DNA of 42,014 nucleotides from Pseudomonadota bacterium (GCA_021848705.1 JAJZTT010000004.1:1-42014), one strand, 5' to 3'; positions 8,975 through 34,617 are shown, counted from the stretch's first letter. A program made the numbers and translations. Notes: generated from the letters alone by a model not told the origin.

Positions 8975-9958
8975 ATGCTCAACGGCAAGGCGGTCTTGAT
9001 TACCGGAGGGACGGGTTCCTTCGGAAAGGAATTCGTCAGGACCATACACGAAAGGTACCGCCCGAAACGCATCGTGGTTTTTTCGCGCGACGAACTCAAG
9101 CAGTTCGAAATGCAGCAGCAATTCAATTCGCACGAAATGCGCTATTTTCTGGGCGACGTCCGGGATGAAAGAAGGTTGCGCAGGGCACTCGAAGGCATCG
9201 ACATCGTGATTCACGCGGCCGCCCTGAAACAGGTCCCGGCTGCAGAATACAATCCGTTCGAATGCATCAGGACCAACATACTGGGGGCGCAGAACCTCAT
9301 CGAGGCCTGCCTGGACACCGGAGTGAAAAGCGTGGTCGCCCTTTCGACGGACAAGGCAGCCGCTCCGATCAACCTGTATGGCGCCACGAAGCTCTGTTCG
9401 GACAAGCTCTTCGTCGCCGCCAACAACATCAAGGGTTCCCGAGACATCCGCTTCAGCGTGGTGCGCTATGGCAATGTGATGGGAAGCCGCGGGTCGGTCA
9501 TCCCGTTCTTTCTCGAGCAGAAAAAAAACGGCGTTCTGCCGATCACCGACCCTGCAATGACCCGATTCAACATCAGTCTGCGCGACAGCATCAGCATGGT
9601 GCTCTGGGCGCTCGAATATGCCCTGGGAGGGGAAATCCTGGTGCCGAAAATTCCTTCCTACCGGATCCTGGATCTCGCCATGGCGATCGCCCCGGAATGC
9701 GAACACCGGGTGGTCGGAATCCGCCCCGGGGAGAAACTTCACGAGGAAATGATCACTTCCAGCGACAGCTTTCATACCGTGGACCTGGGAAGCTATTATT
9801 CGATCCTCCCGCCCGGAGTCGACAATTCGAAATACTGCGACGAAACCGGCGCCGTCCCGGTCGACCCCGGCTTCTGCTACAACAGCGGCACCAATCCCCA
9901 TTTCCTGACAGTGGAAGAATTGCGCCACCTGATCCGGATGAACCTCGGGCACGCATGA
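8975..9958 (+). CDS. pseB: UDP-N-acetylglucosamine 4,6-dehydratase (inverting) PseB
   Basis: First step of pseudaminic acid synthesis: converts UDP-GlcNAc to UDP-2-acetamido-2,6-dideoxy-L-arabino-hexos-4-ulose using bound NADP. The 327-residue short-chain dehydrogenase has the nucleotide-binding glycine motif ITGGTGSFGKEF at the N-terminus, the stretch VIHAAALKQVPAAEYNP, and STDKAAAPINLYGATK, whose Asp-Lys pair and Tyr/Lys are catalytic in the family. ATG at 8975 is preceded by AGGCAGG. Soluble and slightly shorter than the membrane FlaA1/CapD relatives, as expected for PseB. pseC begins 4 nt after its stop. Confidence 0.95.
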   Translation: MLNGKAVLITGGTGSFGKEFVRTIHERYRPKRIVVFSRDELKQFEMQQQFNSHEMRYFLGDVRDERRLRRALEGIDIVIHAAALKQVPAAEYNPFECIRTNILGAQNLIEACLDTGVKSVVALSTDKAAAPINLYGATKLCSDKLFVAANNIKGSRDIRFSVVRYGNVMGSRGSVIPFFLEQKKNGVLPITDPAMTRFNISLRDSISMVLWALEYALGGEILVPKIPSYRILDLAMAIAPECEHRVVGIRPGEKLHEEMITSSDSFHTVDLGSYYSILPPGVDNSKYCDETGAVPVDPGFCYNSGTNPHFLTVEELRHLIRMNLGHA

Positions 9959-9962: not shown

Positions 9963-11132
9963 ATGGACATGATTCCATACGGACGTCAGGACCTCTCGGA
10001 AGAGGACATCCAGGCAGTTGTCGAAATCCTTCGTGCCGATTACATCACCCAGGGGCCTGCAGTCCCGGTTTTCGAGGAATCTGTTGCCGGATATTGCGGA
10101 GCCCTTCATTCCGTTGCCACGAACAGCGCCACCAGCGCCCTGCACCTCTCCTGTCTTGCGCTCGATGTCGGCCCCGGGGACATCGTCTGGACCTCCCCGA
10201 TCACTTTCGTGGCAAGCGCGAACTGCGCGCTCTATTGCGGCGCATCGGTCGATTTCGTGGACATCGATCCGCTCAGTTGCAACATGAGCGCCGAGCGCCT
10301 GGAAGAGAAGCTCCGGTCGGCGGCAAGAAACGGTAAACTGCCGAAAGTCGTGATCCCGGTGCATCTTGCAGGCCAGTCCTGCGACATGGCGAAAATCCAC
10401 GAACTTGGCCAGGAATACGGCTTCAGGATCATCGAGGACGCATCCCACGCCATCGGCGGGAAATATCGCAATGAACCGGTGGGAAACTGCCGCCATTCGG
10501 ACATCACCATTTTCAGCTTTCACCCCGTCAAGATCGTCACGACGGGAGAAGGCGGAATGGCGCTCACCAACGACCCCGGCCTCGCCAGAGGCCTGCGCCT
10601 CAGGCGTTCGCACGGCATCACGAGCGATCGCGAAGAGATGAGGCCGAGACCATGCGACGAAATCTGGAATTACCAGCAGATCGATCTGGGCTTCAATTAT
10701 CGCATGACGGACATCGCTGCAGCCCTCGGAACGAGCCAGATGAAAAGGCTGGATGAGTTTGTCGCAAGACGCAACGAAATCGCCGGATTCTACGAAGAAT
10801 CACTTCGGGATCTGCCCATCGTCACGCAATGGCTGCATCCCGACTGTCATTCTAGCCGCCATCTTTACCTGATCCGTCCGAAACTGCAGGAAATCGGCAA
10901 GACCCATCGCGAAATCTATCAGGCGCTTCACGCCGAAGGGATCCTGGTCAACCTGCATTACATTCCCGTCTACCTCCAGCCCTACTTCGAAAAAATGGGC
11001 TTTTCGCGCGGTTACTGCCCTGAAGCGGAAAGATACTACGGAGAAGTGCTCAGCATCCCGATGTACTACGGACTCACGCGCGCTCAGCAGGAACAGGTGG
11101 TGTCCGCCCTGCAGAAGGTTGTCGGAAGATGA
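9963..11132 (+). CDS. pseC: UDP-4-amino-4,6-dideoxy-N-acetyl-beta-L-altrosamine transaminase PseC
   Basis: PLP-dependent aminotransferase of the DegT/DnrJ/EryC1/StrS family that aminates C4 of the PseB product with glutamate. The 389-residue protein shows the sugar aminotransferase motifs NSATSALHLSCLAL, the Asp of IIEDASHAIGG, and FSFHPVKIVTTGEGG carrying the PLP-binding lysine. The N-terminus IPYGRQDLSEEDIQAVVEIL is typical of PseC. ATG at 9963 is used; ATG at 9969 (MIPYGRQ) is an equally possible start. The stop overlaps pseF by ATGA. Confidence 0.95.
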   Translation: MDMIPYGRQDLSEEDIQAVVEILRADYITQGPAVPVFEESVAGYCGALHSVATNSATSALHLSCLALDVGPGDIVWTSPITFVASANCALYCGASVDFVDIDPLSCNMSAERLEEKLRSAARNGKLPKVVIPVHLAGQSCDMAKIHELGQEYGFRIIEDASHAIGGKYRNEPVGNCRHSDITIFSFHPVKIVTTGEGGMALTNDPGLARGLRLRRSHGITSDREEMRPRPCDEIWNYQQIDLGFNYRMTDIAAALGTSQMKRLDEFVARRNEIAGFYEESLRDLPIVTQWLHPDCHSSRHLYLIRPKLQEIGKTHREIYQALHAEGILVNLHYIPVYLQPYFEKMGFSRGYCPEAERYYGEVLSIPMYYGLTRAQQEQVVSALQKVVGR

Positions 11133-11815
11133 AGCTGGCCATCATTCCTGCCAGGGGCGGAAGCAAACGCATTCCCGGAAAGAACATCCGGGACTTCTGC
11201 GGCAAGCCGATGATCGCCTGGTCGATCGAAAAGGCGCTATCCTCGGGACTTTTCGATCAGGTCATCGTCTCCACGGACGATCCGGCAATCGCCGAAATCG
11301 CCGGGAATTTCGGAGCGCAAATCCCGTTTCTCCGCCCCCGGGAGCTTGCCGACGACCACGCAGGCACGACTGAAGTGATCGCTCACGCAGTGAAATGGGC
11401 CATCGATGAGGGATGGAAGATTTCTGCAGCATGCTGCATCTATGCCACCGCTCCCTTCATCCGGACGGAAGACCTGAAGAAGGGACTGGATCTTCTCGAA
11501 TCCGGTGACTGGGATTATGCATTCACCGTGACCGAATTCGAATCTTCCATCTTCCGCGCCTTTGGAAGGCTCCCCGAAGGAGGGCTGGAAATGTTCTTCC
11601 CTGAATATTTCGACTCCCGTTCCCAGGACCTGCCCGTCGCATTGCACGACGCAGGTCAGTTCTATTGGGGAAGACCCGAAGCATGGCTGAAGGAGCTCAG
11701 GATTTTCGACCGGCGCTCGACCCCGGTACTGATTCCCCGCTGGCGGGTCCAGGACATCGACACTCCCGACGACTGGACGAGGGCCGAATGGATGTTCAGG
11801 CAGATCGGGGCATGA
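11129..11815 (+). CDS. pseF: Pseudaminic acid cytidylyltransferase PseF
   Basis: Activates pseudaminic acid with CTP to CMP-pseudaminic acid, the glycosyltransferase donor. The 228-residue protein has the CMP-sialate-synthetase signature IIPARGGSKRIPGKNIRDFC at the N-terminus, VSTDDPAIAEIA, and YATAPFIRTEDLKKGLD; the C-terminal DIDTPDDW motif is typical of the family. The start overlaps the pseC stop and the end overlaps the radical SAM gene, both by ATGA. Placing the activation gene before the later-acting pseG and pseI is unremarkable, but an insertion of three tailoring genes separates them. Confidence 0.94.
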   Translation: MKLAIIPARGGSKRIPGKNIRDFCGKPMIAWSIEKALSSGLFDQVIVSTDDPAIAEIAGNFGAQIPFLRPRELADDHAGTTEVIAHAVKWAIDEGWKISAACCIYATAPFIRTEDLKKGLDLLESGDWDYAFTVTEFESSIFRAFGRLPEGGLEMFFPEYFDSRSQDLPVALHDAGQFYWGRPEAWLKELRIFDRRSTPVLIPRWRVQDIDTPDDWTRAEWMFRQIGA

Positions 11816-14943: not shown

Positions 14944-15567
14944 ATGAAAAAGGATTATTCAACGCCACAGGAAGCATTCTGGGCCGGGGAATTCGGGAAC
15001 GAATACGTGAGCCGCAACCGCAACGAGGCGCATGTCGCAGGCAATCTCGCCCTGTTTTCCAGGATCCTGAGCAGGACTTCAGGGATCCGGACCGCGATCG
15101 AATTCGGAGCCAATATCGGCCTCAACCTGGTCGCGCTAAAAGCACTCCTGCCGCAGGCGGAATTTTCCGCCATCGAAATCAACGAAAGCGCAGCCTCCGA
15201 ACTGGAAAAAATCGGCTACGTCGACGTACATCGCCAGTCGATCCTCGAATTCGGGTCGGGACCGGATTTCGATCTCGTCCTCATCAAGGGCGTGCTGATC
15301 CACATCCATCCCGAAAAGCTCCCGGAAGTCTATGACAGGCTGTACCATTGCAGCCGCCGCTACATCCTGATCGCGGAATATTACAATCCGACCCCCGTTG
15401 CCATTCCCTATCGTGGGCACGCAGACCGCCTTTTCAAGCGGGATTTCGCAGGAGAAATGCTGGACCGATTTGCCGATCTGACGCTCCTCGACTACGGTTT
15501 CAGCTATCACAGGGACTGCAATTTCCCCCAGGACGATCTCACATGGTTTTTGCTGGAAAAAAAATGA
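14944..15567 (+). CDS. Pseudaminic acid biosynthesis-associated methylase
   Basis: A 207-residue class I SAM-dependent methyltransferase of the type repeatedly found in pseudaminic acid loci (the family described as pseudaminic acid biosynthesis-associated methylase). Motif I is AIEFGANIGLNLVALKALLP, the acidic end of strand 2 is SAIEINESAA, and the family-specific VLIKGVLIHIHPEKLPEVYD and ILIAEYYNPTPVAIPYRGH stretches follow. The methyl acceptor has not been established for the family as far as I know. ATG at 14944 lies just downstream of GAGGATCTCGGA, while an upstream start at 14896 lies inside the previous gene. Its stop overlaps pseG by ATGA. Confidence 0.88.
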   Translation: MKKDYSTPQEAFWAGEFGNEYVSRNRNEAHVAGNLALFSRILSRTSGIRTAIEFGANIGLNLVALKALLPQAEFSAIEINESAASELEKIGYVDVHRQSILEFGSGPDFDLVLIKGVLIHIHPEKLPEVYDRLYHCSRRYILIAEYYNPTPVAIPYRGHADRLFKRDFAGEMLDRFADLTLLDYGFSYHRDCNFPQDDLTWFLLEKK

Positions 15568-16568
15568 GGGTCGTCTTCCGCGCAGACTCTTCCACCCGGG
15601 CGGGCGCGGGGCATGTCATGCGTTCCCTTGCGCTGGCAGACCGGCTCGCCGAATCCGGCGCGGAAATCTTGTTCCTTTGCAGGGACGAACCAGGCAACCT
15701 GAACAGCCTTGTCGCGGAAAAGGGATACCGGGTCCTCGGGATCGGGAACGATGGGAAGACCGACGGAATTGGGGGCTGCGACTGGCTCGTCGTCGATCAT
15801 TACGAGCTCGACGAGAAATGGGAAAAGGCGATGCGCCCCCAGGCCAGACTCATCATGGCGATCGACGACCTGGCGGACAGGAAACACGATTGCGACCTCA
15901 TCCTGGACCAGAATTTCGAGACGGGAAGCCGCTACGGCGGACTCGTTCCGGAAAGCGCGCAGGGGCTTTTCGGCCCCTCCTACGCGCTCCTCAGAAAGGA
16001 ATTCAGCATCATGCGCGAACGCATGGGCATCCGGGACGGATCGATCCGTCGTATCCTGGTTTTTTTCGGAGGAAGCGATGCGACCGATGAGACCTCGAAG
16101 GCGCTCGAAGGAATCAGGATGAGCATGCATGCGAAATGCCATGTCGACGTGATCGCGGGAAGCTCCAACCCGAACCGATCCCGGCTGGAGACCCTTTGCT
16201 CAGGTTTGCCGGATGCGTCCTTCCATTGCCAGGTGAACGACATGGCAAGATTCATGATGCAAGCCGATCTCTCGGTCGGCGCAGGGGGAACCTCGACCTG
16301 GGAGCGCTGCTGCCTGGGTCTCCCTTCGCTCGTCACCGTGCTGGCCGACAACCAGGAAATGGTCGCCGAAACGGTGGCTTCCAAAGGCGCCATATTGAAC
16401 CTCGGAAGATCCGAAACCCTCGCGAGCGAGGATTATCGCAGAGCGCTCGATTCCCTGGACGAGGGCAAAATGAAATCGATGTCCGGGAACGGCCTGCTCC
16501 TCGTGGACGGGAAGGGATGCGAAAGGGTCGCCTCGGTTTTATGGGAAATGTTCCGGAGCCTGCAATGA
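15564..16568 (+). CDS. pseG: UDP-2,4-diacetamido-2,4,6-trideoxy-beta-L-altropyranose hydrolase PseG
   Basis: Removes UDP from the diacetamido sugar to give 2,4-diacetamido-2,4,6-trideoxy-L-altrose, the PseI substrate. The 334-residue protein has the GT-B/MurG-like fold signature DSSTRAGAGHVMRSLALADRL at residues 7-27, with the catalytic-region histidine in GAGHVMR; VVDHYELDEKWE; and the C-terminal nucleotide-binding GAGGTSTWERCCLGLPSL. The substrate is N-acetylated at C4 in the known pathway, so the missing acetyltransferase step must be supplied somewhere. ATGA overlaps at both ends. Confidence 0.94.
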   Translation: MRVVFRADSSTRAGAGHVMRSLALADRLAESGAEILFLCRDEPGNLNSLVAEKGYRVLGIGNDGKTDGIGGCDWLVVDHYELDEKWEKAMRPQARLIMAIDDLADRKHDCDLILDQNFETGSRYGGLVPESAQGLFGPSYALLRKEFSIMRERMGIRDGSIRRILVFFGGSDATDETSKALEGIRMSMHAKCHVDVIAGSSNPNRSRLETLCSGLPDASFHCQVNDMARFMMQADLSVGAGGTSTWERCCLGLPSLVTVLADNQEMVAETVASKGAILNLGRSETLASEDYRRALDSLDEGKMKSMSGNGLLLVDGKGCERVASVLWEMFRSLQ

Positions 16569-17617
16569 ATGAATTGAAGATAGGGGAGCGCCTGGTTGGC
16601 GAGAAGCACCCGCCTTTCACCATCCTGGAAGCGGGAATCAACCACAACGGCGAAATCGCAAAGGCATTCGAAATGATTTCTTTGGCCCGCAGGCTCGGAG
16701 CGGATGCGGTCAAATTCCAGACCTTCAGGGCAGAGGAATTCGTGGGCGACCCCGAACTCACCTTCACCTACCGCTCAAAGGGACGCGAAGTCACAGAATC
16801 GATGCTGGAAATGTTCAGGCGTTACGAGTTTTCGAGGGAAGAATGGTTCGCGATCAGGAAGAGATGCGACGAGGAGGGAATCCTTTTCCTCTCCACGCCG
16901 CAAAATCGCTCAGACCTCGACCTGCTGCTCGAAATCGGCATTCCCGCGATCAAGGTTGGATCGGACGATTTCACCAATCTTCCCCTCCTGAGGGACTATG
17001 CATCCGAAGGACTCCCCATGCTGGTTTCCTGCGGAATGGCTGACCTCGCCGAAGTCCAACAGGCGCTCGATGCGCTGGGGACGCTCGACGGGCACCCGAC
17101 CGTCCTTTTCCTTTGCACTTCGCAATACCCCACTCCGCCGGAAGACGTGAATCTTTTGAAACTCAAAACCCTCTCCAGCGCCTTTCCCGGACTGGTGACC
17201 GGTTTCTCGGATCACACCCGGGGGCCGCTCGCATCTTCCCTCGCCTGCGCGCTGGGGGCGAGGGTCTTCGAGAAACATTTCACCCTCGACCACGATCTTC
17301 CCGGACCGGATCACTGGTTTTCCGAAGATACGGAAGGTGCGGCAAAATGGATCGATTCGATCCGGACCGCTGATGTCATGCTGGGAAGCCCGCTGGTTCG
17401 TCCGACCAGAGAGGAAATGGGGATGCGCATCCTGGCACGACGCAGTATCACTGCGCTCAAACCGATCGCGCCGGGAGAAGTGTTCAGCGCGATGAACACT
17501 GGCTTGAAAAGGCCCGGAAACGGACTCCCCCCCGCCCTTTATGACCAGGTGGTGGGAAAAAGGGCGAGGCATGCACTCGAAGCAGGAAAACAGATCACAC
17601 TGGGAGACCTCGACTGA
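16565..17617 (+). CDS. pseI: Pseudaminic acid synthase PseI
   Basis: Condenses 2,4-diacetamido-2,4,6-trideoxy-L-altrose with phosphoenolpyruvate to form pseudaminic acid. The 350-residue protein has the NeuB-type TIM barrel (TILEAGINHNGEIAKAFEMI, GADAVKFQTF, IPAIKVGSDDFTNLPLL, GFSDHTRGPLASSLACALGA, EKHFTLDHDLPGPDH) and a C-terminal antifreeze-like SAF domain from about residue 285 (ARRSITALKPIAPGEVFSAM). Relatives make sialic or legionaminic acid; assignment to PseI rests on the neighbouring pseB, pseC, pseF and pseG. A second in-frame ATG at 16569 is not preferred because the first overlaps the pseG stop in the ATGA pattern of the operon. Confidence 0.93.
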   Translation: MNELKIGERLVGEKHPPFTILEAGINHNGEIAKAFEMISLARRLGADAVKFQTFRAEEFVGDPELTFTYRSKGREVTESMLEMFRRYEFSREEWFAIRKRCDEEGILFLSTPQNRSDLDLLLEIGIPAIKVGSDDFTNLPLLRDYASEGLPMLVSCGMADLAEVQQALDALGTLDGHPTVLFLCTSQYPTPPEDVNLLKLKTLSSAFPGLVTGFSDHTRGPLASSLACALGARVFEKHFTLDHDLPGPDHWFSEDTEGAAKWIDSIRTADVMLGSPLVRPTREEMGMRILARRSITALKPIAPGEVFSAMNTGLKRPGNGLPPALYDQVVGKRARHALEAGKQITLGDLD

Positions 17618-18057
17618 TGGAAACTGGAGACTTCGGCCGTCTATTTTCGGAACTCACGCACTTTCGCGAAAACCGTTTCCATCCTCTGGTCTGGATCCTT
17701 GGAGAGCCCGAAATCGGTGAAAACGTCTATATCGGAGGATTTTCCGAAATCAACGCAACCGGAGCAAAAATCCGAATCGGCGAGCACTGCGACATCGCTT
17801 CGTTCGTCAGCATCAACTGCGCCGACTCGCACAGGAAATGCATCGGACTTTCCGAGGAAGTGGAAAGGCGCGACATCACCCTCGAAAACAACGTCTTCGT
17901 CGGGTCGCATTCGGTCATCAAGGGGGGCGCGAAAATCGGCCATCACAGCGTCGTGGCGGCCGGGACCATCGTCGATGGCGTACAAATCCCCCCCTATTCC
18001 CTGGTGATCGGCAACCCGATGCAGGTGAAGGCGGGATACTACCTCGACAAGAAATGA
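17617..18057 (+). CDS. Hexapeptide-repeat (left-handed beta-helix) acyltransferase
   Basis: A 146-residue acyltransferase with hexapeptide repeats folding as a left-handed beta-helix: IGENVYIGGFSEINATGAKI, IRIGEHCDIASFVSI, ITLENNVFVGSHSVIKGGAK, IGHHSVVAAGTIV, and the usual closing PPYSLVIGNPMQVK. These enzymes transfer acetyl or other acyl groups from CoA to amino or hydroxyl groups of sugars. The operon has no GNAT-type PseH, so this protein could acetylate N4 of the pseudaminic acid precursor. The alternative is that it acylates the amino sugar made by the DegT protein encoded next to it, a pairing known from dTDP-amino sugar pathways (FdtB/FdtC). TGATG joins it to pseI and ATGA to the next gene. 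Confidence 0.85.
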   Translation: METGDFGRLFSELTHFRENRFHPLVWILGEPEIGENVYIGGFSEINATGAKIRIGEHCDIASFVSINCADSHRKCIGLSEEVERRDITLENNVFVGSHSVIKGGAKIGHHSVVAAGTIVDGVQIPPYSLVIGNPMQVKAGYYLDKK

Positions 18058-19049
18058 TCCGGCACAACTGTCCCACCCTGGGCGAAGAAGAAAAACTCGC
18101 GGCTTCACGAGTCATCGAATCCCGCTGGCTCGCCCAGGGAATCGAGACATCGAGCCTCGAGGATGAGTTCTGCGAGTATCTGGGCTTGCCTGCTGGACAT
18201 GCCGTGGCACTATCGAGCGGAACGGCAGCGCTTTTCGTTGCGCTCAAGGTGCTCGATGCCGGAAATAAATCGGTCGCCTATCCCGCCTATGCCTGCTCTG
18301 CCCTCAGAAATGCCACCGCCATGGCAGGCGGGAAGGAAGTCCTCCTCGACATCCTTGCCGGTACGCCCAATCTCGACCTCGATGAGGCTGCGAAAAATCG
18401 CCCCGACATCCTGATCGCCCCCCATCTGTTCGGCATTCCCTCGAAGATTCCACACCTTCCCGGGATCCGGGTAATCGAGGATTGCGCCCAGTCCCTGGGC
18501 GCGAAAGTGGAGGACATACCGGTCGGCCTGCAAGGGGATATCGGCATTCATTCCTTCTACGTCTCGAAGCTCATGACTTCGGGGGGTCAGGGAGGAATGC
18601 TCGTTTCGAAGGACAGGTCCGTTGCCGATGCTGCGCGGGATTACCGTGAATTCGACTGCAGACGCGACAGGGTGCCGAGATTCAATTTCCAGATGACCGA
18701 TCTGCAAGCCGCGATCGGCAGGGTGCAACTTGGAAAACTTCCCTCCTTTTTGCAAAGGCGAGAGGAAATCTTCTCGCGCTACAGGCAGGCGGGGCTCGAT
18801 CTTCTGGATAGCGGATTCAGCCCGGTTCGCTATCGCGCAGTGCTGAAAACGGAACATCCCTCTTCGGTGATCGAAGCGCTCGCAAAAAGAAACATCCGCG
18901 CCATCGTTCCGATCGAGGACTGGGAGATTCTGGGAGAAGGTTTTCCCAATGCGCTTTCGCTTTCCAGAACCAGCGTATCGCTCCCGATCTATCCTTCCCT
19001 TTCCTTGGATGCGCTCGATTCGGTCATCGAAGGAGTGCTCCCGGCATGA
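18054..19049 (+). CDS. DegT/DnrJ/EryC1/StrS-family sugar aminotransferase
   Basis: A 331-residue PLP-dependent aminotransferase-like protein, shorter than the usual 360-390. The N-terminus PTLGEEEKLAASRVIESRWLAQG, ALSSGTAALFVALKVL, the Asp of VIEDCAQSLGA, and SFYVSKLMTSGGQGG with the PLP lysine are recognisable. The usual GEGG after the lysine reads GQGG here, and the C-terminal part is compact, so activity or substrate may be altered. It is a second family member beside PseC and not a recent copy, since the two are clearly diverged. Position suggests amination of a sugar or of a nonulosonic acid side chain. ATGA overlaps link it to the acyltransferase and the WbqC gene. Confidence 0.86.
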   Translation: MIRHNCPTLGEEEKLAASRVIESRWLAQGIETSSLEDEFCEYLGLPAGHAVALSSGTAALFVALKVLDAGNKSVAYPAYACSALRNATAMAGGKEVLLDILAGTPNLDLDEAAKNRPDILIAPHLFGIPSKIPHLPGIRVIEDCAQSLGAKVEDIPVGLQGDIGIHSFYVSKLMTSGGQGGMLVSKDRSVADAARDYREFDCRRDRVPRFNFQMTDLQAAIGRVQLGKLPSFLQRREEIFSRYRQAGLDLLDSGFSPVRYRAVLKTEHPSSVIEALAKRNIRAIVPIEDWEILGEGFPNALSLSRTSVSLPIYPSLSLDALDSVIEGVLPA

Positions 19050-19723
19050 TCCTCACCGCCCATCAACCCGCCTACCTACCCTGGCTCGGGTATTTCGACA
19101 AGCTGATCCGGAGCGATGTTTTTGTCTTTCTCGACAATGTGCAGTACGAAAAAAACAGCTACATCAACCGCAACCGGATCAAGACCCCGCAGGGGGCGAT
19201 CTGGCTCACCATCCCGGTGAAGACCCGCGGCCACACTTCCTCCACCCTTCGTGATACCGAAATCGACGGCGATCTGTGGAAGGCAAAGCACCTGAAATCG
19301 ATCTGGCTGAACTACAGGAAGGCACCGCGCTTCGAGACCTGCTATCCGCGTCTGGAGAAACTGTATTCGGAAAGGGATGACCGGTTATCCGATCTCTGTT
19401 TCAGGCATCTTGAATTCTGGCTCGCCGAAATCGGCATCGAAAAAAAAATCGTGAGGGCCTCCGAATTACCCATCAATGGCAGAAAATCCGATCTTATTCA
19501 TGAAATTTGCGCTTATTTCAGGGCAGATCGATACATTTCAGGGGCATTGGGAAGGAATTATCTGGAAGAGGAAAAGTTCGCTTCTTCCGGAATCAGCATC
19601 GAATATCAGCAATATTCCCACCCCACCTATCCCCAACTCCACGGCGAATTCATGCCCTTCATGGGCATCGTGGATTTCTGGATGAACACCGACCGTTTCG
19701 CACTGATCTCGGAGAACGCATGA
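19046..19723 (+). CDS. WbqC-family protein
   Basis: A 225-residue protein of the WbqC family, recognised from its N-terminus HQPAYLPWLGYFDKLIRSDV followed by FLDNVQYEKNSYINRNRIKT. Members occur in O-antigen and flagellin glycan loci; their reaction is not established to my knowledge. There is no signal peptide or transmembrane segment, so it should be cytosolic. It is embedded in the ATGA-coupled run between the aminotransferase and a methyltransferase gene, which suggests that it acts on the same sugar or its attached group. Confidence 0.88.
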   Translation: MILTAHQPAYLPWLGYFDKLIRSDVFVFLDNVQYEKNSYINRNRIKTPQGAIWLTIPVKTRGHTSSTLRDTEIDGDLWKAKHLKSIWLNYRKAPRFETCYPRLEKLYSERDDRLSDLCFRHLEFWLAEIGIEKKIVRASELPINGRKSDLIHEICAYFRADRYISGALGRNYLEEEKFASSGISIEYQQYSHPTYPQLHGEFMPFMGIVDFWMNTDRFALISENA

Positions 19724-20385
19724 GTTTCTCGAATGAATGGGAAGAGAGATACCGGGAAAATACCCATCTGAGCGTTTGGCCATGGAGCGATCTGGTCAGT
19801 TTCGTGATGCGCCATGCGAGACCGGACCGGAAAAATTTCAGGGTACTCGAGCTCGGATGCGGCGCAGGAGCGAACATTCCCTTTTTCGAATGGCTGGGAG
19901 TGGATTATCATGCAATCGAAGGCAGCAGATCCATCGTGGAAAGGCTGAAAACGACCCACCCGGAGCTTGAAGAGCGAATCGTCGCTGGAGATTTCACCAG
20001 GGGAATTCCGTTCCCGGGGCGTTTCGATCTGGTCGTGGACAGGGCTGCGCTCACCCACAACGACACGGCATCGATCGAAATGGCGCTCGAAGTGGTGAGA
20101 AACAAGCTTTCATCCGGGGGAAAATACGTGGGAATCGACTGGTTTTCCACCGATTACTGCGAATTCGAAAAAGGGACGACCGGGGGGGACGAAAACACCC
20201 GAACCGGGTACCGGGAAGGGTCTTTCTCGGGGGTCGGCAAGGTGCACTTTTCGGACAGGGAACACCTGCTCCATCTTTTCAGGAATTTTGAAATCATGGC
20301 GCTTGAGCACAAGATCATTCGGCGCGAAATTCCGCAAGACGGCTGGCATTTCGCTTCATGGAACCTGGTAGCGAGGAAAATATGA
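19720..20385 (+). CDS. Class I SAM-dependent methyltransferase
   Basis: A 221-residue methyltransferase with motif I VLELGCGAGANIPFFEWLG at about residues 42-60, the acidic residue after strand 2 in YHAIEGSRSIVERL, and FDLVVDRAALTHND as motif II region. The acceptor is unknown. It differs from the pseudaminic-acid-associated methylase of the same operon, so two separate methylation steps are likely. The end HFASWNLVARKI is typical of small-molecule methyltransferases of this fold. ATGA overlaps at both ends. Confidence 0.88.
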   Translation: MSFSNEWEERYRENTHLSVWPWSDLVSFVMRHARPDRKNFRVLELGCGAGANIPFFEWLGVDYHAIEGSRSIVERLKTTHPELEERIVAGDFTRGIPFPGRFDLVVDRAALTHNDTASIEMALEVVRNKLSSGGKYVGIDWFSTDYCEFEKGTTGGDENTRTGYREGSFSGVGKVHFSDREHLLHLFRNFEIMALEHKIIRREIPQDGWHFASWNLVARKI

Positions 20386-21065
20386 ACAGAAAAGTTCTGG
20401 TCGTGGCAGCCCACCCCGACGACGAAGTGCTGGGCTGCGGCGCAACGATGGCCAAGCATGTGCAGGACGGCGACGAAGTGCATGTGCTGATCATGGCCGA
20501 AGGAGTCACCAGCCGTGGAGGCACGAGGACGGAAGGAATGGATTCGGAGGCGCTTGTCGCGCTTTCCGATTCGGCCAGAAAAGCCTGCGGAACCCTGGGC
20601 GCAGCTTCCCTCACGATGCTGGGTTTCCCGGACAACCGGATGGATTCGCTGGACCGCCTGGACATCATCAAGGAAGTGGAAAAAGTCATCGAAACGGTTC
20701 GACCGGAAATCCTCTACACCCACCACGGGGCGGACGTGAACATCGATCACAGGATCGTTCACGACGCAGTGGTGGTCGCATCGAGGCCGGTTCCGGGACA
20801 ACCGGTCAAAACGCTGCTGTTTTTCGAAATTTCCTCGAGCACGGAATGGCAGGTTTCATCCCACGCATTTTCCCCGAACTGGTTCGTGGATGTCTCCGAC
20901 ACCATGCACCTCAAACTGCTCGCGCTAGAGGATTACCATGCGGAAATCAGGCCCTGGCCGCATGCCCGCTCGCTGAAGGCAATCGAGCATCTCGCAAGGC
21001 TGCGCGGCGCCACCATCGGACGCGAAGCCGCGGAAGCCTTCATCCTTGGACGGACAATCCTCTGA
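20382..21065 (+). CDS. PIG-L/LmbE-family deacetylase
   Basis: A 227-residue predicted zinc-dependent N-deacetylase. The metal-binding motif AHPDDEVLGCGA lies at residues 9-20, and the third ligand is in NIDHRIVHDAV. Family members remove acetyl groups from N-acetylglucosamine units or related amino sugars. In this operon it could free an amino group on the pseudaminic acid or another sugar for re-acylation by the hexapeptide acyltransferase, or for methylation. It is the last gene of the plus-strand run; its final 26 nt overlap the end of the convergent TPR-glycosyltransferase gene, so no terminator fits between them. Confidence 0.9.
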   Translation: MNRKVLVVAAHPDDEVLGCGATMAKHVQDGDEVHVLIMAEGVTSRGGTRTEGMDSEALVALSDSARKACGTLGAASLTMLGFPDNRMDSLDRLDIIKEVEKVIETVRPEILYTHHGADVNIDHRIVHDAVVVASRPVPGQPVKTLLFFEISSSTEWQVSSHAFSPNWFVDVSDTMHLKLLALEDYHAEIRPWPHARSLKAIEHLARLRGATIGREAAEAFILGRTIL

Positions 21066-23526
21066 GGTCCGAAGCGATTTTTTTCAGAACGGATTGCCAC
21101 GGAATTTCTGCAGATCTCAGATACATGCTCGCACTCGGCATCCAGGGATAACGTCCTGTTCCAAGCGTATCCCAGGCATCGCTCATCGCCATGATCCAGA
21201 CCGGAACGCCGAGTGCTCCGGCCGTCACGGCCACCGCAGTGGGCGCCGAAATCACCAGATCGAGCGCAGAAGTGATCGCCGCCGCCTCGTCAAGGTCGCC
21301 CCTCAAATCGACTTCCGGAAAGCCCCTGATTTCGACGCCGAAGCGCCTGCTTGCCGCATCCAGCTCGGCCCGGCATTCGTCGTACTGAAGATTGAAAAAA
21401 CGCACCCCGGGTACGGAAAAAATCTCCCCCCACTCTTCGAGCACGGAGTAATGCAGGTCCCGAAGCGCGCTCTTCAGGCTGCTCCTCCAGCAGATTCCGA
21501 CATTCAGCATTCCCGGGACGCTAATCCCGTTTCGCCAGTATGCCACCCTGCCAGGATCGGCCTGAAGATAGCCGCGACGGCTCGGGAAGGAGTCGATGGA
21601 GGACCTCAGGTGCCTCGCGAGGCTCGCCATTGGAAGCTGCAGATCCGCCTGCATGGCACGCTGATCCGGCGGAGTCGTCCTTGCAATCACCGTGGCTTCT
21701 GGAAAGGACCTGGCAAAGAGCGGGACCAGGCGGCGTTCGCATTCGATCACGACGAAGGAGGCGAGCGAAATGGCATCCTTCGCCATGCCCGCATAGAAAA
21801 TCTCGTCGCCCACCCCCTGCTCCCCCCATAACAGCAAGGTCTTTCCGGAAAGGTCTCCGCCATCCCACCAGGGCTGGGGGAAAGGCCGCTCCTGCCCCTT
21901 CTGGTTGGCCTGCCAGCGGGACTCGAATGCTTTCCAGCCCTCTTCGAGATTGCCGCTCGCAAGAAGGGACAAGGCAAGATTCCAGCGTATCACCGGCGCA
22001 TCCTGCAGCACGCCAAGCGCCCTTTCGTACAAAGCCACCGCTTCGCCGAATTTTCCCTGCATCTGCAGGATGGTGCCCAGATTGTTGAAAGCTTCCGTGA
22101 GGTCCGGTTCGATTTCGAGCGCGCGCTCATAGGCTCGCAAGGCATCCACAAGCCTCGCCGCCTTCCTGTACGCATTGCCGAGATTGAGATGGGCGAGCGC
22201 ATAATCCGGCTTCAGCTCGATGGCGCGCAGCAATACAGGCACCGCCTTTTCCGGTTGGTCCATGTCGACATGCACCACCCCCAGATTGTTGCAGCTTTCT
22301 GCAAAATCAGGCCGGATTGAAACGGCTGCTTCGAGCGGGACGATCGCATCCTCGTATCGTTTCAGTTCCCAGAGCGTCACGCCGAGATTGTTGAGGCTTT
22401 CCGCATGCGCGGGATTCTCCCCGACTGCACGGCGGAAATGCCCGATCGCCTCCTCAGACTCCCCCATTCCCCGACACGCCATTCCCCAATTGTTCCAGGC
22501 TGCAGCATATCCCGGCTTCAGGACCGTTGCCCGCCTTGCGGCTTCGGCCGCCTCCCCGTACCTCCCCCGACCGTTGAGAAGGGCTGCGAGATTGCTCCAA
22601 GCTTCGGCATAGTCCGGATCGATTCCAACGGCTTTGCCGACAAGGGCAATCCCCTCCTCATGCCTGCCCAGGAAATCCAGCAGCTTGCCCAGGTTGTTGT
22701 ACGCCTTGGGGTAGGCCGGATCGATGGAAAGCGCTTTCAGATAGGATTCCTCGGCCTCTTTCCAAGCTCCCTGCAGCTCCAATGCCGTGCCCAGATTGAG
22801 GTGGGGCTCGACGCTTTTACCGTCGATCAGGATGGCCTTGCGGTAGCATTCCACCGCCTCCTCCACTCTCCCCAGTTCCTGAAGGGCGCTGCCCAGATTG
22901 CTGTAGGGGACTGGCGAAAAAGGCGCGATTTTCACCGCCTTTTTCATCAGTTCCACAGCCTTCCCGTTTTCGCCTCTTTGATGAAAAACCAGGCCGAGAA
23001 GATGCAGCGCATCCGCATTTTCGGCCTCGGACCCGAGCACTTCCAGATAAATTCGCTCCGCCTCGTCAAGGCGGTTTTGCTGGTGAAGAGATACGGCGCG
23101 CCCGATTTTCTCGCCGATCGCGGCAGGAGAAAGCTTCTTTCCGGACTTTGGAATCCCGAGTTTTGTTTCCGGGTGGATGTTCGCAGGCGAAGTCATCGAG
23201 AAAATCGCCTCGCGCTCCAGTTCGTCCGCCTTCGCCAACCATTGCCGCGCGATCTCTTGCTGTCCGAGCGATTCGCAAATCCTGGCGCAGTCTTTCAGGT
23301 ATCCTGGAGCCGGATTCGCCTCGATCGCTTTCGCGATGAAATTCAGCGCCTGCTCAGGATGACCGAAATCCTGCGCGATAAGCGCGAGCAGATGGAGCGC
23401 TCCGTCGTGCAGGGGTTCGACCTGAACGATGGCGGCACAGAGTTCCGCCGCCTGCCCGGCCTCTCCCCGGCTGAGGCAAGCCCTCGCTTCTGCCAATGCA
23501 TCGTCGATCAGCTTGTTTTGGTCCAT
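21040..23526 (-). CDS. TPR glycosyltransferase (FlmG-like, candidate flagellin glycosyltransferase)
   Basis: An 828-residue protein. Residues 1-130 hold degenerate repeats, about 135-545 carry some twelve tetratricopeptide repeats (PYSNLGSALQELGRVEEAVE, AYNNLGKLLDFLGRHEEGI, AFNNLGTILQMQGKFGEAVA), and 560-828 is a GT9/GT-B-like domain (KTLLLWGEQGVGDEIFYAGM, GICWRSSLKSA, FFNLQYDECRAELD, LDLVISAPTAVAVTAGALGVPV). The layout matches FlmG of Caulobacter, where the TPR part binds flagellin and the transferase part adds pseudaminic acid. No Maf protein is present, so this is a strong candidate for the pseudaminic acid transferase. It converges on the pse operon and diverges from its paralogue at 23654. 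Confidence 0.88.
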   Translation of the reverse strand: MDQNKLIDDALAEARACLSRGEAGQAAELCAAIVQVEPLHDGALHLLALIAQDFGHPEQALNFIAKAIEANPAPGYLKDCARICESLGQQEIARQWLAKADELEREAIFSMTSPANIHPETKLGIPKSGKKLSPAAIGEKIGRAVSLHQQNRLDEAERIYLEVLGSEAENADALHLLGLVFHQRGENGKAVELMKKAVKIAPFSPVPYSNLGSALQELGRVEEAVECYRKAILIDGKSVEPHLNLGTALELQGAWKEAEESYLKALSIDPAYPKAYNNLGKLLDFLGRHEEGIALVGKAVGIDPDYAEAWSNLAALLNGRGRYGEAAEAARRATVLKPGYAAAWNNWGMACRGMGESEEAIGHFRRAVGENPAHAESLNNLGVTLWELKRYEDAIVPLEAAVSIRPDFAESCNNLGVVHVDMDQPEKAVPVLLRAIELKPDYALAHLNLGNAYRKAARLVDALRAYERALEIEPDLTEAFNNLGTILQMQGKFGEAVALYERALGVLQDAPVIRWNLALSLLASGNLEEGWKAFESRWQANQKGQERPFPQPWWDGGDLSGKTLLLWGEQGVGDEIFYAGMAKDAISLASFVVIECERRLVPLFARSFPEATVIARTTPPDQRAMQADLQLPMASLARHLRSSIDSFPSRRGYLQADPGRVAYWRNGISVPGMLNVGICWRSSLKSALRDLHYSVLEEWGEIFSVPGVRFFNLQYDECRAELDAASRRFGVEIRGFPEVDLRGDLDEAAAITSALDLVISAPTAVAVTAGALGVPVWIMAMSDAWDTLGTGRYPWMPSASMYLRSAEIPWQSVLKKIASDLRGLSVQG

Positions 23527-23653
23527 TGCAAGAAAACTCCGTCGTGGGGCCCCAGTATATTACAAAGGCGGCGCATTGGAATGCTGTGCGGCTTGAGCAA
23601 GCATCACAAGATGCTGCATGATAGTCGCACCAGCGACAGGACGGGATGGAAAG
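23527..23653. promoter_or_regulatory. Divergent promoter region between two TPR-glycosyltransferase genes
   Basis: A 127-nt intergenic region. For the plus strand, TTGAGC (23593-23598), 18-bp spacer, CATGAT (23617-23622) is a modest sigma-70 candidate. For the minus strand TATACT (complement of about 23555-23560) could be a -10 box, with no clear -35. A small palindrome, GCATC-ACAA-GATGC (23601-23614), lies between the plus-strand hexamers and could bind a regulator. No sigma-54 or sigma-28 motif is seen. Confidence 0.35.
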
Positions 23654-26599
23654 ATGCAAAAAAGCCGTGAAGAGCAGTGGTTCAATGAAGGGTTTTCGCT
23701 GCATCATGCAGGAAGGATCGAAGAGGCGGCGGAACGGTACCGCAAGGTTCTGAAAAAATATCCGGATCATGCAGAGACCCGGTATCTGCTCGGAACCGCC
23801 TGCAGTCAGCTCGGAAAACTGGAGGAAGCCGAGATCCATCTCGGAAGGGCGCTCAGGTTCCATCCCGATCACCCGGAAGCGCTCAACAATCTGGGGCTCA
23901 CCCTGAAAAAATTGAACCGCAACCAGGAGGCCATCCCCCTTTACCGCCGGGCCATCGAATTGAGGCCGGATTACGCCGATGCGCACAGCAATCTGGGTGG
24001 AGCGCTCGAATTTGCGGGCGAACTCGACGAAGCCGAAGAACACCTTCGTCTCGCCCTGAAGCTCAATCCGAACCTTGCCGATGCGCATTACCTGCTCGGC
24101 CTCGTGCTTCGCGACCGGGACAAATATGAGGAAGCATCGAAATGCTTCCTGCGCGGACTGGAACTGAAGCCGGATTTCGCCAGCGCCTATTGCGATCTCG
24201 GGGTCATTTACAAGATGTGGGGAAGGTACGAGGATGCACTTTCCTGCATGCAGCGATCGCTCCGGCTCGATCCTGATTTCTACAGCGCACAGTCGAACAT
24301 CGGCACGATCTACGAGGAGCTGGGCAGATTCGGGGAGGCGCTCGCTGCCTACCGCCGCGCATCCGAACTCAATCCTGAAGACATCATCGCGAGATGGAAC
24401 ATGGCGCTCCTTCACCTGAGGCAGGGTGTGCTCGAAGCAGGCTGGGAAGCCTACGAAATGCGCTTCGGAATGGGCATGGCGGCAAGGCGCTTCTCCTTCC
24501 CGGAATGGCAGGGCGAATCGCTGGAAGGAAAGAGGATCCTGGTCTATGCCGAGCAGGGACTGGGTGACGAAGTCTTTTTCGCTTCCTGCATTCCGGACCT
24601 GCTCCGGATTGCAGGAGACTGCATCATCGAATGCGATCCGCGACTTGCCCCCCTGTTCAGAAGATCGTTTCCCCGAGCCTCCGTCGTCGGCTCGAAAAAG
24701 AGCCAGACGGGGTGGCTCGCCACAGCACCGAAAATCGATGTGCAATCCCCTTCGGGAAGTCTGCCGCGATTCCTGCGTCCCACCCTGGAAAGCTTTCCGG
24801 AAAATCCCGCATATCTTCAGGCCGATCCTGCAAGGATCGAACACTGGCGCTCGAAAATCGCCCTGCTCGGCCCCGGCCTCAAGGTCGGGATCTGCTGGAG
24901 AAGCGGACTCGTCAAGGGAGAACGCTACAAGCAGTACAGCAGTCTTTCACAATGGGGCAGGATTTTTTCCACGGAAGGAGCGCATTTCGTCAACCTGCAA
25001 TACGACGAATGCGCTGAAGAACTGAGGCAAGCCGAGGCACAATTCGGCGTGCCGATCCTGGTACCGGAGCTCGACCTCAGGAACGAACTCGACGAGCAGG
25101 CTGCGCTCATTTGCTCACTGGACCTTGTGATCTCCGCCGCCACCGCCACTGTCGAACTCGCCAGTTCCCTCGGCATTGCCTGCTTCCGCCTCGACGCACA
25201 TGGAAAGCCATGGGAATGCCTCGGAACCGATTCCATGCCCTGGCATCCCTCGATGCGCTGCTTCGGCCAGCCGAGCCCCGGGGATTGGGACACCCCCCTT
25301 GCGCTCGCAGCCAACGCACTCCTCGAAATGGCAAAGGGAGAGGCGGAGTCGGTCGAATATTTGCCGCTTCCGGGCGGATCTGAAATCGCTGCCTCGCCTT
25401 CCCTGGAATCCCTTCCGACCTATGTCCTGAAAGAGCAGGACGGCTGGTTCAATCCTGAATACCACTTCCTGCCCCGCCTCCTTGGTCCGGGCGCAAAATT
25501 CGTCGACTTCGGTTGCGGAACCGGAGAAAACGCGGTTCCGGCTGCAAAATCGGGCTCAAGAGTGCATGCATTTGCTGAAACCGCACAGGATGCGGACCTG
25601 CTCATGAAATCGAGAAAAAGAAACGGGCTCGAAAAAAGCCTCTCGGTTTCCATTCTCGAAGAACACGCTTCCCTCGATCAGGAAATGGACCGGCATGGGC
25701 TCGATGGCGTTTCCCTGCTTCGCATCGCAACCGGATTGGCCAATCCGGCCACGCTGGATGGGGGGCTGCATTTTTTCTCTGCAAATTCCCCGCTCGTGAT
25801 GTTCGGGATCGACCGGGAAGAATGCCCTGCGGTGATCGAACGCTTCCGCCTGCAGGGATTCGGGGTCTATCATTTCGTTCCAGGCCTCGATCTGCTGGTT
25901 CCCCACCATGAGGAACTCGACGCCTTTTCGCTCAATCTTTTCGCTTGCAGGGAAGATCGAGCCGCCCTGCTCGAAGGCAGGATCGTCACGCGCCCCACCC
26001 CCATGGAATCTTTTCCCGGAGCGGAAGAGCCGCTCTGGCAGGAATATCTGAAAGGGAAAGACTACGCCCTGCGACACATCGAATCCTGGCAGCGATCCCG
26101 GGAAAGGGACTGGGAAGTGTATTTCATGGCGCTCAATCTTTTCGCCATGGCGAAATCGGCAACACATTCTCCGGAACGCCGCTACGCAAGCCTGCAGGCC
26201 GCAGCCACCACGCTGCACGCGCTGGTCCAGGAATCTGCCACCCTGCCCCGCCTGCTGAGCTTCAGCCGGATCCTTTCCGAACTCGGCATGCGGGAAGCCT
26301 GCGTCCACCTCCTGAATCATGTCTGCATCCATCTCGATTCCATCAGGGAAATTCCCGTGGAAGAACCCTTCCTCGCGCCCGATCCTTCCAGGGAAATGGA
26401 AAATCCCGGGGAAAGAATGGGCGAATGGATCGTCGCAATGCTCCTCGAAGAGAGGGAAAGGCTGCGCGCCTTCTCGAGTTATTTCACCGGAAGCGAATCC
26501 CTGCCGGTACTCAGAAGGGTGGCCGATTCCGGGTTTGCGAGCGAGGATGCAAAAAGGCGCATCGGATTGATCGAAACAAGGCTGGGAAGTTCGTCCTGA
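23654..26599 (+). CDS. TPR glycosyltransferase fused to a degenerate FkbM-like methyltransferase domain
   Basis: A 981-residue three-part protein. Residues 1-280 carry about eight tetratricopeptide repeats (ALNNLGLTLKKLNRNQEAIP, AHSNLGGALEFAGELDEAEE). Residues 290-540 form a GT9-like domain clearly paralogous to that of the 21040-23526 protein (ILVYAEQGLGDEVFFASCIP, VGICWRSGLVKGERYKQYSS, FVNLQYDECAEELRQAEAQF). Residues 610-760 resemble an FkbM methyltransferase: SAM-site-like KFVDFGCGTGENAVPAAKSG, but the usual acidic IKIDVEGAE strand reads VSLLRIATGLAN. About 200 helical residues end it. ATG at 23654 was chosen because an in-frame start at 23618 lies inside the candidate promoter. Probably a flagellin glycan transferase; the third domain may be non-catalytic. 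Confidence 0.87.
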   Translation: MQKSREEQWFNEGFSLHHAGRIEEAAERYRKVLKKYPDHAETRYLLGTACSQLGKLEEAEIHLGRALRFHPDHPEALNNLGLTLKKLNRNQEAIPLYRRAIELRPDYADAHSNLGGALEFAGELDEAEEHLRLALKLNPNLADAHYLLGLVLRDRDKYEEASKCFLRGLELKPDFASAYCDLGVIYKMWGRYEDALSCMQRSLRLDPDFYSAQSNIGTIYEELGRFGEALAAYRRASELNPEDIIARWNMALLHLRQGVLEAGWEAYEMRFGMGMAARRFSFPEWQGESLEGKRILVYAEQGLGDEVFFASCIPDLLRIAGDCIIECDPRLAPLFRRSFPRASVVGSKKSQTGWLATAPKIDVQSPSGSLPRFLRPTLESFPENPAYLQADPARIEHWRSKIALLGPGLKVGICWRSGLVKGERYKQYSSLSQWGRIFSTEGAHFVNLQYDECAEELRQAEAQFGVPILVPELDLRNELDEQAALICSLDLVISAATATVELASSLGIACFRLDAHGKPWECLGTDSMPWHPSMRCFGQPSPGDWDTPLALAANALLEMAKGEAESVEYLPLPGGSEIAASPSLESLPTYVLKEQDGWFNPEYHFLPRLLGPGAKFVDFGCGTGENAVPAAKSGSRVHAFAETAQDADLLMKSRKRNGLEKSLSVSILEEHASLDQEMDRHGLDGVSLLRIATGLANPATLDGGLHFFSANSPLVMFGIDREECPAVIERFRLQGFGVYHFVPGLDLLVPHHEELDAFSLNLFACREDRAALLEGRIVTRPTPMESFPGAEEPLWQEYLKGKDYALRHIESWQRSRERDWEVYFMALNLFAMAKSATHSPERRYASLQAAATTLHALVQESATLPRLLSFSRILSELGMREACVHLLNHVCIHLDSIREIPVEEPFLAPDPSREMENPGERMGEWIVAMLLEERERLRAFSSYFTGSESLPVLRRVADSGFASEDAKRRIGLIETRLGSSS

Positions 26600-26774: not shown

Positions 26775-28796
26775 ATGCCCAGCTATATCAATACGAATAT
26801 CTCGTCGCTCCAAGCTCAGTTGAACCTGTCGAATTCGCAAAGCTCCCTTGCGACTTCGCTGCAGCGTCTGTCTTCAGGCCTCAGAATCAACTCGGCAGCC
26901 GACGACGCAGCGGGTCTTGCCATCGCAACCCGGATGACCTCCCAGATCAACGGCCTGACCCAGGCAACCCGGAACGCAAACGACGCCATCTCGCTGGCAC
27001 AGACCGCGGGCGGCGCGCTTTCCGGCATCACCAACATGCTGCAATCCCTGCGTAACCTCGCAGTCCAATCAGCCAACAGCACCAATACCGCGACCGACCG
27101 CGCGGCCATCCAGCAACAGGCTTCGGCGCTCGTCGCTGAAATCCAGCGTACCGCGACCACCACCCAGTTCAACGGACTGAACCTGCTCGACGGCACCTAC
27201 ACCAACCAGTCCTTCCAGGTCGGCACCGCAGCAGGACAAACCATTGCCGTTTCGATCGGCGCAGCCACCACCGACAAGCTCGGCAGCAGCACGACCGCTT
27301 CGCTCACCGCATCGAACAACGGCACTGCGATGGCTTCCGGCGACCTCGTCCTCAACGGCATCACGGTGGGCGCATCGCTCGCTTCCTCCGATTCCTCCTC
27401 GACGACTTCGCAGGCTTCATCGGCGATCGCCAAGGCAGCGGCCATCAACGCCGTCTCTGCCCAGACCGGCGTCACAGCGAAGGCGGATGCAACCGTCGCT
27501 TCCGGAACCGGACAGACCCTGCAGGCTTCTTCCGGCAGCATCGCCATCAACGGGGTGAGCGTCACCATCACCACCGGCGGAACCAGTGCATCGGCCGACC
27601 GTGCATCGATCGTCTCCGCGATCAATGCGGTCTCCGGACAGACCGGTGTCGTGGCGACCGACGGGGGCTCCTCCGCGAACGGCGTATCGCTGCAGGCTGC
27701 CGACGGCCGCAACATCAGCGTCTCCCTCGGATCCCTGACCTCTTCGGCAACCCTGGGCTTCGCCGCGACAACGAGTTACGGCACGTACACCCTGAGCTCG
27801 ACCAGCACGATCAACGTTTCCGGTTCCTCGACACTTTCGGATGCAGGTCTGGTTGCAGGCAGCTATTCGGCGATGACCGCATACGGCACCACCACCGCGG
27901 GAAGCACCACCGCATTCGCTGCCGGCGACTTCACCATCAACGGCATCCAGATAGGCGCATCGCTCGCTTCTTCCGACAACGCCTCGACCACCTCGCAGGC
28001 TTCCTCTGCGATCGCCAAGGCTGCTGCGATCAACGCGATTTCGGCACAGACCGGCGTGACCGCGAAGGCGGATGCGACCGTCTCGGGCACGGCTGCCCAG
28101 ACCCTGCAGGCCTCTTCCGGCACCATCGCCATCAACGGCGTATCGGTCTCGATCACCACGGCAGGCGTGAACGCCTCCACGGACCGGGCATCCATCGTCA
28201 CCGCGATCAATTCGGTTTCCGGTCAGACCGGCGTAGTGGCTTCCGACGGAGGCTCCTCGGCGAACGGCGTGGTGCTGACCGCGGCTGACGGACGCAACAT
28301 CAGCGTATCGCTCGGATCCCTGACCACTTCGGCCACCCTGGGCTTTGCAGCGACCACGAGTTATGGCACGCTGACCCTTTCTTCCGCCTCGCAGTTCACC
28401 GTGGGAGCGGGAACCACGGGCGCCAGCATCAGCGGAGAAGGCATGCTCGCGGCGGGAACCTACGGCGTCGGTCAGACCGGGCAGTCGCTCAACTCGATCA
28501 ACCTTTCGACGGCTGCAGGCGCAACCAACGCCATCGCCGCGATCGACAACGCGATCAACTCGGTGAACAGCACGCAGGCAACGCTCGGTGCGATCCAGAA
28601 CCGCTTCACGCAGACCATCTCCACGCTGCAGTCGACGACGCTGAATCTGACCGCGGCGAGAAGCCGGATCCAGGACACCGACTTCGCGGCGGAAACCGCC
28701 AACATGACCAAGGCCCAGATCCTGCAACAGGCCGGCACGGCAATGCTGGCACAGGCGAACCAGCTCCCCAACACGGTGCTGTCTCTCCTGAAGTAA
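26775..28796 (+). CDS. fliC: Flagellin
   Basis: Filament subunit exported by the flagellar type III system. At 673 residues it is long. The conserved D0/D1 N-terminus (INTNISSLQAQLNLSNSQSS, RLSSGLRINSAADDAAGLAI) and C-terminus (RIQDTDFAAETANMTKAQIL, QANQLPNTVLSLLK) frame a large central region rich in Ser, Thr, Ala and Gly. That region contains a tandem duplication of 195 residues (period 585 bp): GASLASSDSSSTTSQASSAI and GASLASSDNASTTSQASSAI are equivalent points. No cysteine is present. The many surface Ser/Thr are plausible O-glycosylation sites for the neighbouring transferases. The RBS is AGGAGAACTGAAATG, transcription is from the sigma-28 site, and a hairpin follows the stop. Confidence 0.97.
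   Translation: MPSYINTNISSLQAQLNLSNSQSSLATSLQRLSSGLRINSAADDAAGLAIATRMTSQINGLTQATRNANDAISLAQTAGGALSGITNMLQSLRNLAVQSANSTNTATDRAAIQQQASALVAEIQRTATTTQFNGLNLLDGTYTNQSFQVGTAAGQTIAVSIGAATTDKLGSSTTASLTASNNGTAMASGDLVLNGITVGASLASSDSSSTTSQASSAIAKAAAINAVSAQTGVTAKADATVASGTGQTLQASSGSIAINGVSVTITTGGTSASADRASIVSAINAVSGQTGVVATDGGSSANGVSLQAADGRNISVSLGSLTSSATLGFAATTSYGTYTLSSTSTINVSGSSTLSDAGLVAGSYSAMTAYGTTTAGSTTAFAAGDFTINGIQIGASLASSDNASTTSQASSAIAKAAAINAISAQTGVTAKADATVSGTAAQTLQASSGTIAINGVSVSITTAGVNASTDRASIVTAINSVSGQTGVVASDGGSSANGVVLTAADGRNISVSLGSLTTSATLGFAATTSYGTLTLSSASQFTVGAGTTGASISGEGMLAAGTYGVGQTGQSLNSINLSTAAGATNAIAAIDNAINSVNSTQATLGAIQNRFTQTISTLQSTTLNLTAARSRIQDTDFAAETANMTKAQILQQAGTAMLAQANQLPNTVLSLLK
27333..28385 (+). 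repeat. 585-bp tandem duplication inside fliC
   Basis: The segment starting at 27333 recurs at 27918 with a constant offset of 585 bp. Similarity is high for about 465 bp (27333-27800 against 27918-28385), then fades over the remaining 120 bp. The offset is the same at GGCGCATCGCTCGCTTC (27369/27954) and at ACGAGTTA (27771/28356), so there are no indels and the frame is kept at 195 codons. Confidence 0.9.
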
Positions 28797-33441: not shown

Positions 33442-33456
33442 ATCCCTTTTGAGGAA

Positions 33457-33475: not shown

Positions 33476-33502
33476 TCCCTTGCAAGCCCATAAGAGTGCA
33501 CC

Positions 33503-34587: not shown

Positions 34588-34617
34588 TTGCGGATTTTCC
34601 CACTTGCATGCAATTGC

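Follow-up and report, generated by a model that had tools for sequence, protein, structure and literature searches.

The locus analysed here carries nonulosonic acid (NulO) genes beside a flagellin gene and no gene for a Maf protein, which raises the question of which enzymes would place the sugar on flagellin. The window, meaning the whole 42,014 nt stretch that was analysed, is contig C27 of a Pseudomonadota genome (G000; 2.82 Mb in 263 contigs, 89.3% complete). Its gene order is lysC, a GGDEF gene, a TPR-GT41 gene, the NulO genes, two further TPR glycosyltransferase (TPR-GT) genes and then fliC, fliD, fliS, fliT, a fliK-like gene, a two-component pair, fliF, fliG, fliH and fliI (Table 1). 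The two TPR-GTs, here named A and B, are divergently transcribed. The original prediction read them as FlmG-like enzymes of a pseudaminic acid locus that, together with the GT41 protein, would build a multi-sugar glycan on flagellin sequentially or site-specifically.

Table 1. Features of the glycosylation locus, with positions counted from the first nucleotide of the window
Feature	Position	Strand	Basis or remark
GGDEF gene	4904-6754		
TPR-GT41 protein, unrelated GT family	6751..8952	+	PF13844, E=5.6e-98
pseB	8975..9958	+	TIGR03589, 524 bits (cut-off 408)
pseC	9963..11132	+	TIGR03588, 530 bits (cut-off 424)
pseF-like cytidylyltransferase	11129..11815	+	PF02348
pseG	15564..16568	+	TIGR03590, 275 bits (cut-off 154)
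NulO synthase, nearer NeuB/NnaB than PseI	16562..17617	+	
Decoration block: hexapeptide acyltransferase, DegT aminotransferase, WbqC-like, methyltransferase, PIG-L deacetylase	17617..21065	+	
Protein A, 828 aa	21040-23526	-	ORF confirmed open
A: GT-B/GT9-fold glycosyltransferase domain, FlmG clade (residues 509-828)	21043..22002	-	kinship with B, tree, invariant residues
A: long TPR array, about 12 repeats, linker near residues 105-140	22003..23508	-	Pfam TPR_1 (E=3e-72), repeat scan
Divergent promoter region between A and B	23527..23653		sequence; 91 bp to ATG 23618, 127 bp to likelier ATG 23654
Protein B ORF, 993 aa	23618-26599	+	ORF confirmed open; likelier start 23654
B: TPR, GT, predicted degenerate FkbM, helical tail	23654..26599	+	
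B: TPR array, 7 repeats	23669..24382	+	Pfam TPR_1 (E=8e-53), repeat scan
B: GT-B/GT9-fold domain, FlmG clade	24383..25357	+	FlmG identity, tree, model and fold search
B: predicted degenerate FkbM-type methyltransferase domain	25358..25972	+	homology to stand-alone PF05050 proteins, model fold
B: predicted helical C-terminal tail, conserved along with the degenerate FkbM	25973..26599	+	
fliC flagellin, 673 aa, Ser/Thr-rich centre; presumed acceptor	26775..28796	+	PF00669/PF00700, composition

A Flagellin_N profile search found no second flagellin in the G000 genome. The one extra match is FlgL, which rules out a second flagellin as the acceptor for A. The true start of B is probably ATG 23654, as this position has a better-looking ribosome site and the resulting 981 aa come close to the 982 aa of the ortholog in G004. 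Promoter patterns for sigma-54 and sigma-28 were no more frequent in the window than expected by chance, and none was found at the A/B gap. Elsewhere in the window, a perfect sigma-54 consensus (TGGCAC-N5-TTGCA; 34618-34633, minus strand) lies directly upstream of the ORF at 33275-34609 and adjoins an FlrC-like regulator. An FlrB-type histidine kinase is encoded at 35955-37217 (minus strand), and a longer ORF that overlaps it in another frame (35959-37263) is spurious.

That the locus has no Maf was borne out: PF01973 and PF20157 gave no matches in it or in the rest of the G000 genome, and PF20157 gave none in nine genus members. The search is sound, as PF20157 does match G028, a genome of the same order. 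As the G000 genome is only 89% complete, a Maf gene could sit in its missing part, yet there is none in any genus member. With PF20157 present in 1/60 genomes, lack of Maf is normal for the order and not special to this locus. A and B have no Maf domain, and the job proposed for them, NulO transfer to flagellin, is equivalent to that of Maf.

A TPR-GT that modifies flagellin is known from Caulobacter, where FlmG puts sialic-acid-like sugars on flagellin, its TPRs bind and choose the flagellin, the modification requires the pseudaminic acid pathway, and one FlmG, of 596 aa, suffices (PMC7591256). FlmG has also been co-expressed with flagellin and a sugar pathway in laboratory E. coli. By scanning named genomes, we found in Caulobacter vibrioides (L167) an ORF that, from its first Met, has the published length. 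B is 35% identical to it (263 bits) over 503 aa including the TPRs, and A is 31% identical (233 bits), also over 503 aa. In a GT-domain tree of 103 rows, a single clade of 42 rows (99/96) unites A, B and Caulobacteraceae FlmG, and the Caulobacteraceae members adjoin flagellin genes. Two other TPR-GTs of G000 (C86, C120) fall far outside this clade. Members of the FlmG clade have the stretch W[RK]S...R...[YF][ST], where other TPR-GTs mostly have W.G.....RS; as a W-x-S regular expression also catches a few rows outside the clade, the tree and not the motif was used to classify. Within the clade, A shares a branch with its G004 counterpart and a protein from the Alphaproteobacteria (98/95), and B one with its own orthologues (100/99). 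The pair is thus an old divergence, and recent tandem duplication as its origin is ruled out by the tree. In two other genomes of the comparison, single ORFs of about 2730 aa (L098 in G290) and 2562 aa (L102 in G174) contain four FlmG-clade GT modules each, and these are apparently fused TPR-GT units.

The claim of two divergent paralogues at 21040-26599 that join TPRs to GT9-like domains also held, with both ORFs open, clear TPR matches and a GT9 fold. The repeat counts, about 12 in A and about 7 in B, come from a simple scan. Pfam and NCBIfam returned TPR matches only, with no Pfam GT model matching the C-terminal domain of either protein, and a PDB sequence search with the GT profile was likewise negative. 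The GT domain of B was modelled with AlphaFold (pLDDT 95.5), and the best PDB matches of the model are the GT9 heptosyltransferases 3tov, 1psw (WaaF) and 2h1h (WaaC), with E values from 3e-8 to 2e-7; as no Pfam GT model matches, 'GT9-like' is valid for the fold only. While GT9 heptosyltransferases (WaaC, WaaF, TibC) offer the nearest solved fold, the donor expected here is a CMP-NulO and not ADP-heptose.

Sequence identity, tree position, architecture, linkage to fliC and NulO genes and the absence of Maf together support placing A and B in the FlmG class. Both combine N-terminal TPRs and a C-terminal GT-B domain in one soluble chain, as in Caulobacter, both are closer to Caulobacter FlmG than to generic TPR-GTs, and in both systems the genome also encodes NulO biosynthesis, in linkage with flagellin genes. 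The differences are that there are two paralogues here, that their TPR arrays are longer, that B carries a further C-terminal region of 410 aa, that the NulO synthase is not a clear PseI and that the host belongs to another class of Pseudomonadota. By analogy with FlmG, we infer that the TPRs of A and B may likewise guide the choice of flagellin.

A strong NeuB-family synthase was found in 16/16 genomes with an FlmG-clade member, these being the genomes whose loci were examined; of the further TPR-GTs among the compared genomes, some were classified. Within the class, NeuB was present in 6/6 genomes with a clade member and in 7/27 with other TPR-GTs (Fisher p=0.0015, uncorrected for kinship), an association partly confounded by common ancestry. 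This co-occurrence is the best evidence in this analysis that the donors are CMP-NulOs.

Which NulO is used is less clear. PseB, PseC and PseG all exceed curated cut-offs, but the locus synthase scores below the cut-offs of both NeuB/NnaB (327 bits; cut-off 400) and PseI (222 bits; cut-off 340), and is the more NeuB-like, which weakens the original proposal of pseudaminic acid. Synthases in the G002, G004 and G007 loci are true PseI (494-511 bits). As the G000 synthase is not a clear PseI, the donor is uncertain, and we would call it a nonulosonic acid of pseudaminic or hybrid type that need not be pseudaminic acid. Among the genes of the locus none was recognised as PseH-like, and one encodes a hexapeptide acyltransferase (17617-18057). 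The block from the NeuB-like synthase through the hexapeptide acyltransferase, DegT, WbqC and methyltransferase genes to PIG-L is similar to a portion of a G002 cluster of legionaminic type. Also within the NulO block, a B12-dependent radical SAM protein (11812-13776) is nearest to KedN5-type C-methyltransferases (158 bits, far below the cut-off) and may act in sugar decoration. The 385 aa protein that follows (13773-14930) has no family match and contains a GxSxGG-like stretch; it is perhaps an alpha/beta hydrolase or acyltransferase. In G007, a probable N-acetyl-sugar amidotransferase (L023 12670-15217; identified by eye, without a Pfam match) sits between NulO genes together with partners resembling HisH and HisF, which suggests an acetamidino-NulO in that genome.

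B directly precedes fliC in all four genomes that have it (G000, G002, G004 and G007), its stop codon lying 175 bp from fliC in G000, and is the conserved member of the pair, predicted to be the principal enzyme. In two genus members without FlmG-type GTs (G001, G008), a different TPR/RgpF/GT2 cassette occupies the same place beside fliC. The flagellins next to that cassette are shorter, 525-529 aa versus 673-692 aa plus one frame of 1580 aa. The latter (L026 672-5414 in G002) is more than twice the usual length and has a very long Ser/Thr-rich centre. Between G000 and G004, FliD is 95% identical, B about 60% and A about 53%. The locus thus looks like a glycosylation cassette that is swapped and changes fast while the flagellar genes around it stay stable. 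The same comparisons bear on the idea that the TPR-GTs modify another target, such as lipopolysaccharide intermediates or another protein, and adjoin fliC by chance. The wider TPR-GT family is common (46/274 class genomes), many of its members lie away from flagellin in the stretches examined, and the G000 genome has further TPR-GTs. Set against the constant position of B, the replacement of one TPR cassette by another at the same place and the FlmG-clade membership of A and B, we consider this idea highly improbable.

A is 40% identical to B over 545 aa, rising to 45% for the GT domains alone, and among genus members is present in two, G000 and G004. It is predicted to be an accessory paralogue that diverged anciently from B. 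It could also be a redundant or decaying duplicate, with flagellin modified by B alone, given that G002 and G007 keep B beside fliC and lack A, that A occurs in two closely related genomes only and that one FlmG is enough in Caulobacter (PMC7591256). This is unlikely, as A retains all of the residues (E-Q-G..D, G, W, Q and D) that are invariant across a 38-row alignment of the GT domain, has a full open frame in both genomes despite their 53% identity, and is no recent duplicate in the tree.

A division by sugar, in which B would transfer a pseudaminic-type NulO to FliC and A a sialic- or legionaminic-type NulO or a DegT/WbqC sugar, either elsewhere on the protein or onto the sugar placed by B, is a real possibility that we nonetheless think somewhat improbable. 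A and B are separate lineages, A being the one that groups with an alphaproteobacterial protein, and the locus contains extra sugar genes. A NeuB-NeuC pair, with NeuC 94% identical, is found in exactly the genomes that have A (G000:C184, L235; G004:C210, L236) and was not found in G002 or G007. Some Mafs have a TPR domain and their paralogues differ in site choice (PMC13317340, which cites Unay et al. 2024 for the site-specific action of paralogous Mafs). However, G000 and G004 are also closest relatives, so that common descent may explain why A and the NeuB-NeuC pair occur together, and G002 lacks A but has extra sugar genes. With A and B as old, separate lineages and site-specific paralogous Mafs as precedent, site-specific or sequential action of the two enzymes is plausible.

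The inclusion of the GT41 protein as a third enzyme fared less well. The protein is real, and its joint role with A and B in building one glycan is not established. In G002 and G007 the GGDEF gene is followed directly by pseB and the GT41 gene is absent from that place, so it is unsupported as a conserved third member, and A is present in just 2/4 loci with B. As the GT41 protein also belongs to an unrelated transferase family, its role in flagellin modification is unproven. The GGDEF protein opens the glycosylation cluster in G000, G002 and G007.

Residues 581-993 of B form a third domain that the original prediction missed. This region matches stand-alone proteins from further families within the order, which PF05050 identifies as FkbM methyltransferases (E values as low as 9e-15), so by likeness it belongs to the same domain family. 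The PF05050 profile itself did not match it. Its model (pLDDT 86) has a Rossmann methyltransferase fold followed by a helical tail, and the AFEP glutamate, a segment of approximately 35 residues and D(A/V)EG, kept in 10/10 stand-alone relatives, are all lost in 5/5 copies fused to TPR-GTs (four FlmG-type and the GT41-type of G052). The fused domains share 47-61% identity within the genus. Sequence and model thus indicate that the closing stretch of B, approximately 410 aa long, consists of a decayed FkbM methyltransferase and a helical tail, and the loss of the FkbM signatures from all fused copies makes a non-catalytic docking or scaffold role likelier than methylation. Enterobacterial flagellin islands are known to encode GT41 proteins that carry a methyltransferase domain (PMC4875605), so a GT-methyltransferase fusion is in itself not new; the fused copies here differ in that their FkbM signatures are gone. 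No description of FkbM decay, or of an FlmG fusion partner of this kind, was found in the open-licence literature. Given that precedent, the retained fold and the remaining part of motif I (DxGxGxG-like), the domain might still be an active sugar O-methyltransferase, but the lost signatures and the missing PF05050 match disfavour this, and we rate it very unlikely. In G037, a tandem pair of stand-alone FkbM genes lies near genes resembling flhF (SRP54 GTPase) and motC (MotA_ExbB), and a homologue of the GGDEF protein (40% identical) adjoins the pair (L029 7177-8949).

We therefore favour, as the likely overall reading, that A and B would be cytoplasmic flagellin O-glycosyltransferases of the FlmG class, whose N-terminal TPR arrays would bind flagellin before export and whose GT9-fold domains would transfer a CMP-activated NulO, made by the genes just upstream, to Ser/Thr in the centre of FliC. 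This TPR-GT route would stand in for Maf. B would be the principal enzyme beside fliC and A an accessory paralogue acting at other sites or with another NulO or sugar, and the third domain of B was probably retained for docking or scaffolding, without catalysis, and not as a methylating enzyme. Homology, fold, gene neighbourhood, Maf absence, NulO-synthase co-occurrence and the loss of methyltransferase signatures are the observed basis of this reading; flagellin binding, the donor, the division of labour and the role of the tail are its predictions. With considerable doubt, we suggest going further: a pseudo-FkbM module may have been recruited to TPR-type transferases of two unrelated GT families, the FlmG type of this genus and the GT41 type of G052. 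There it may help to select flagellin or read a site that is already glycosylated, with A and B thereby placing two different NulOs in a fixed pattern on one flagellin without Maf.

A and B extend the FlmG class beyond the Alphaproteobacteria and add to it a paired arrangement and a putative pseudo-methyltransferase domain. The contrast of intact stand-alone and decayed fused FkbM domains would be a clean case of an enzyme turned accessory domain. The pair offers a natural test of site and donor choice by TPR-GTs acting on one flagellin, and may supply parts for engineering sialylation-type modification in the cytoplasm of laboratory strains.
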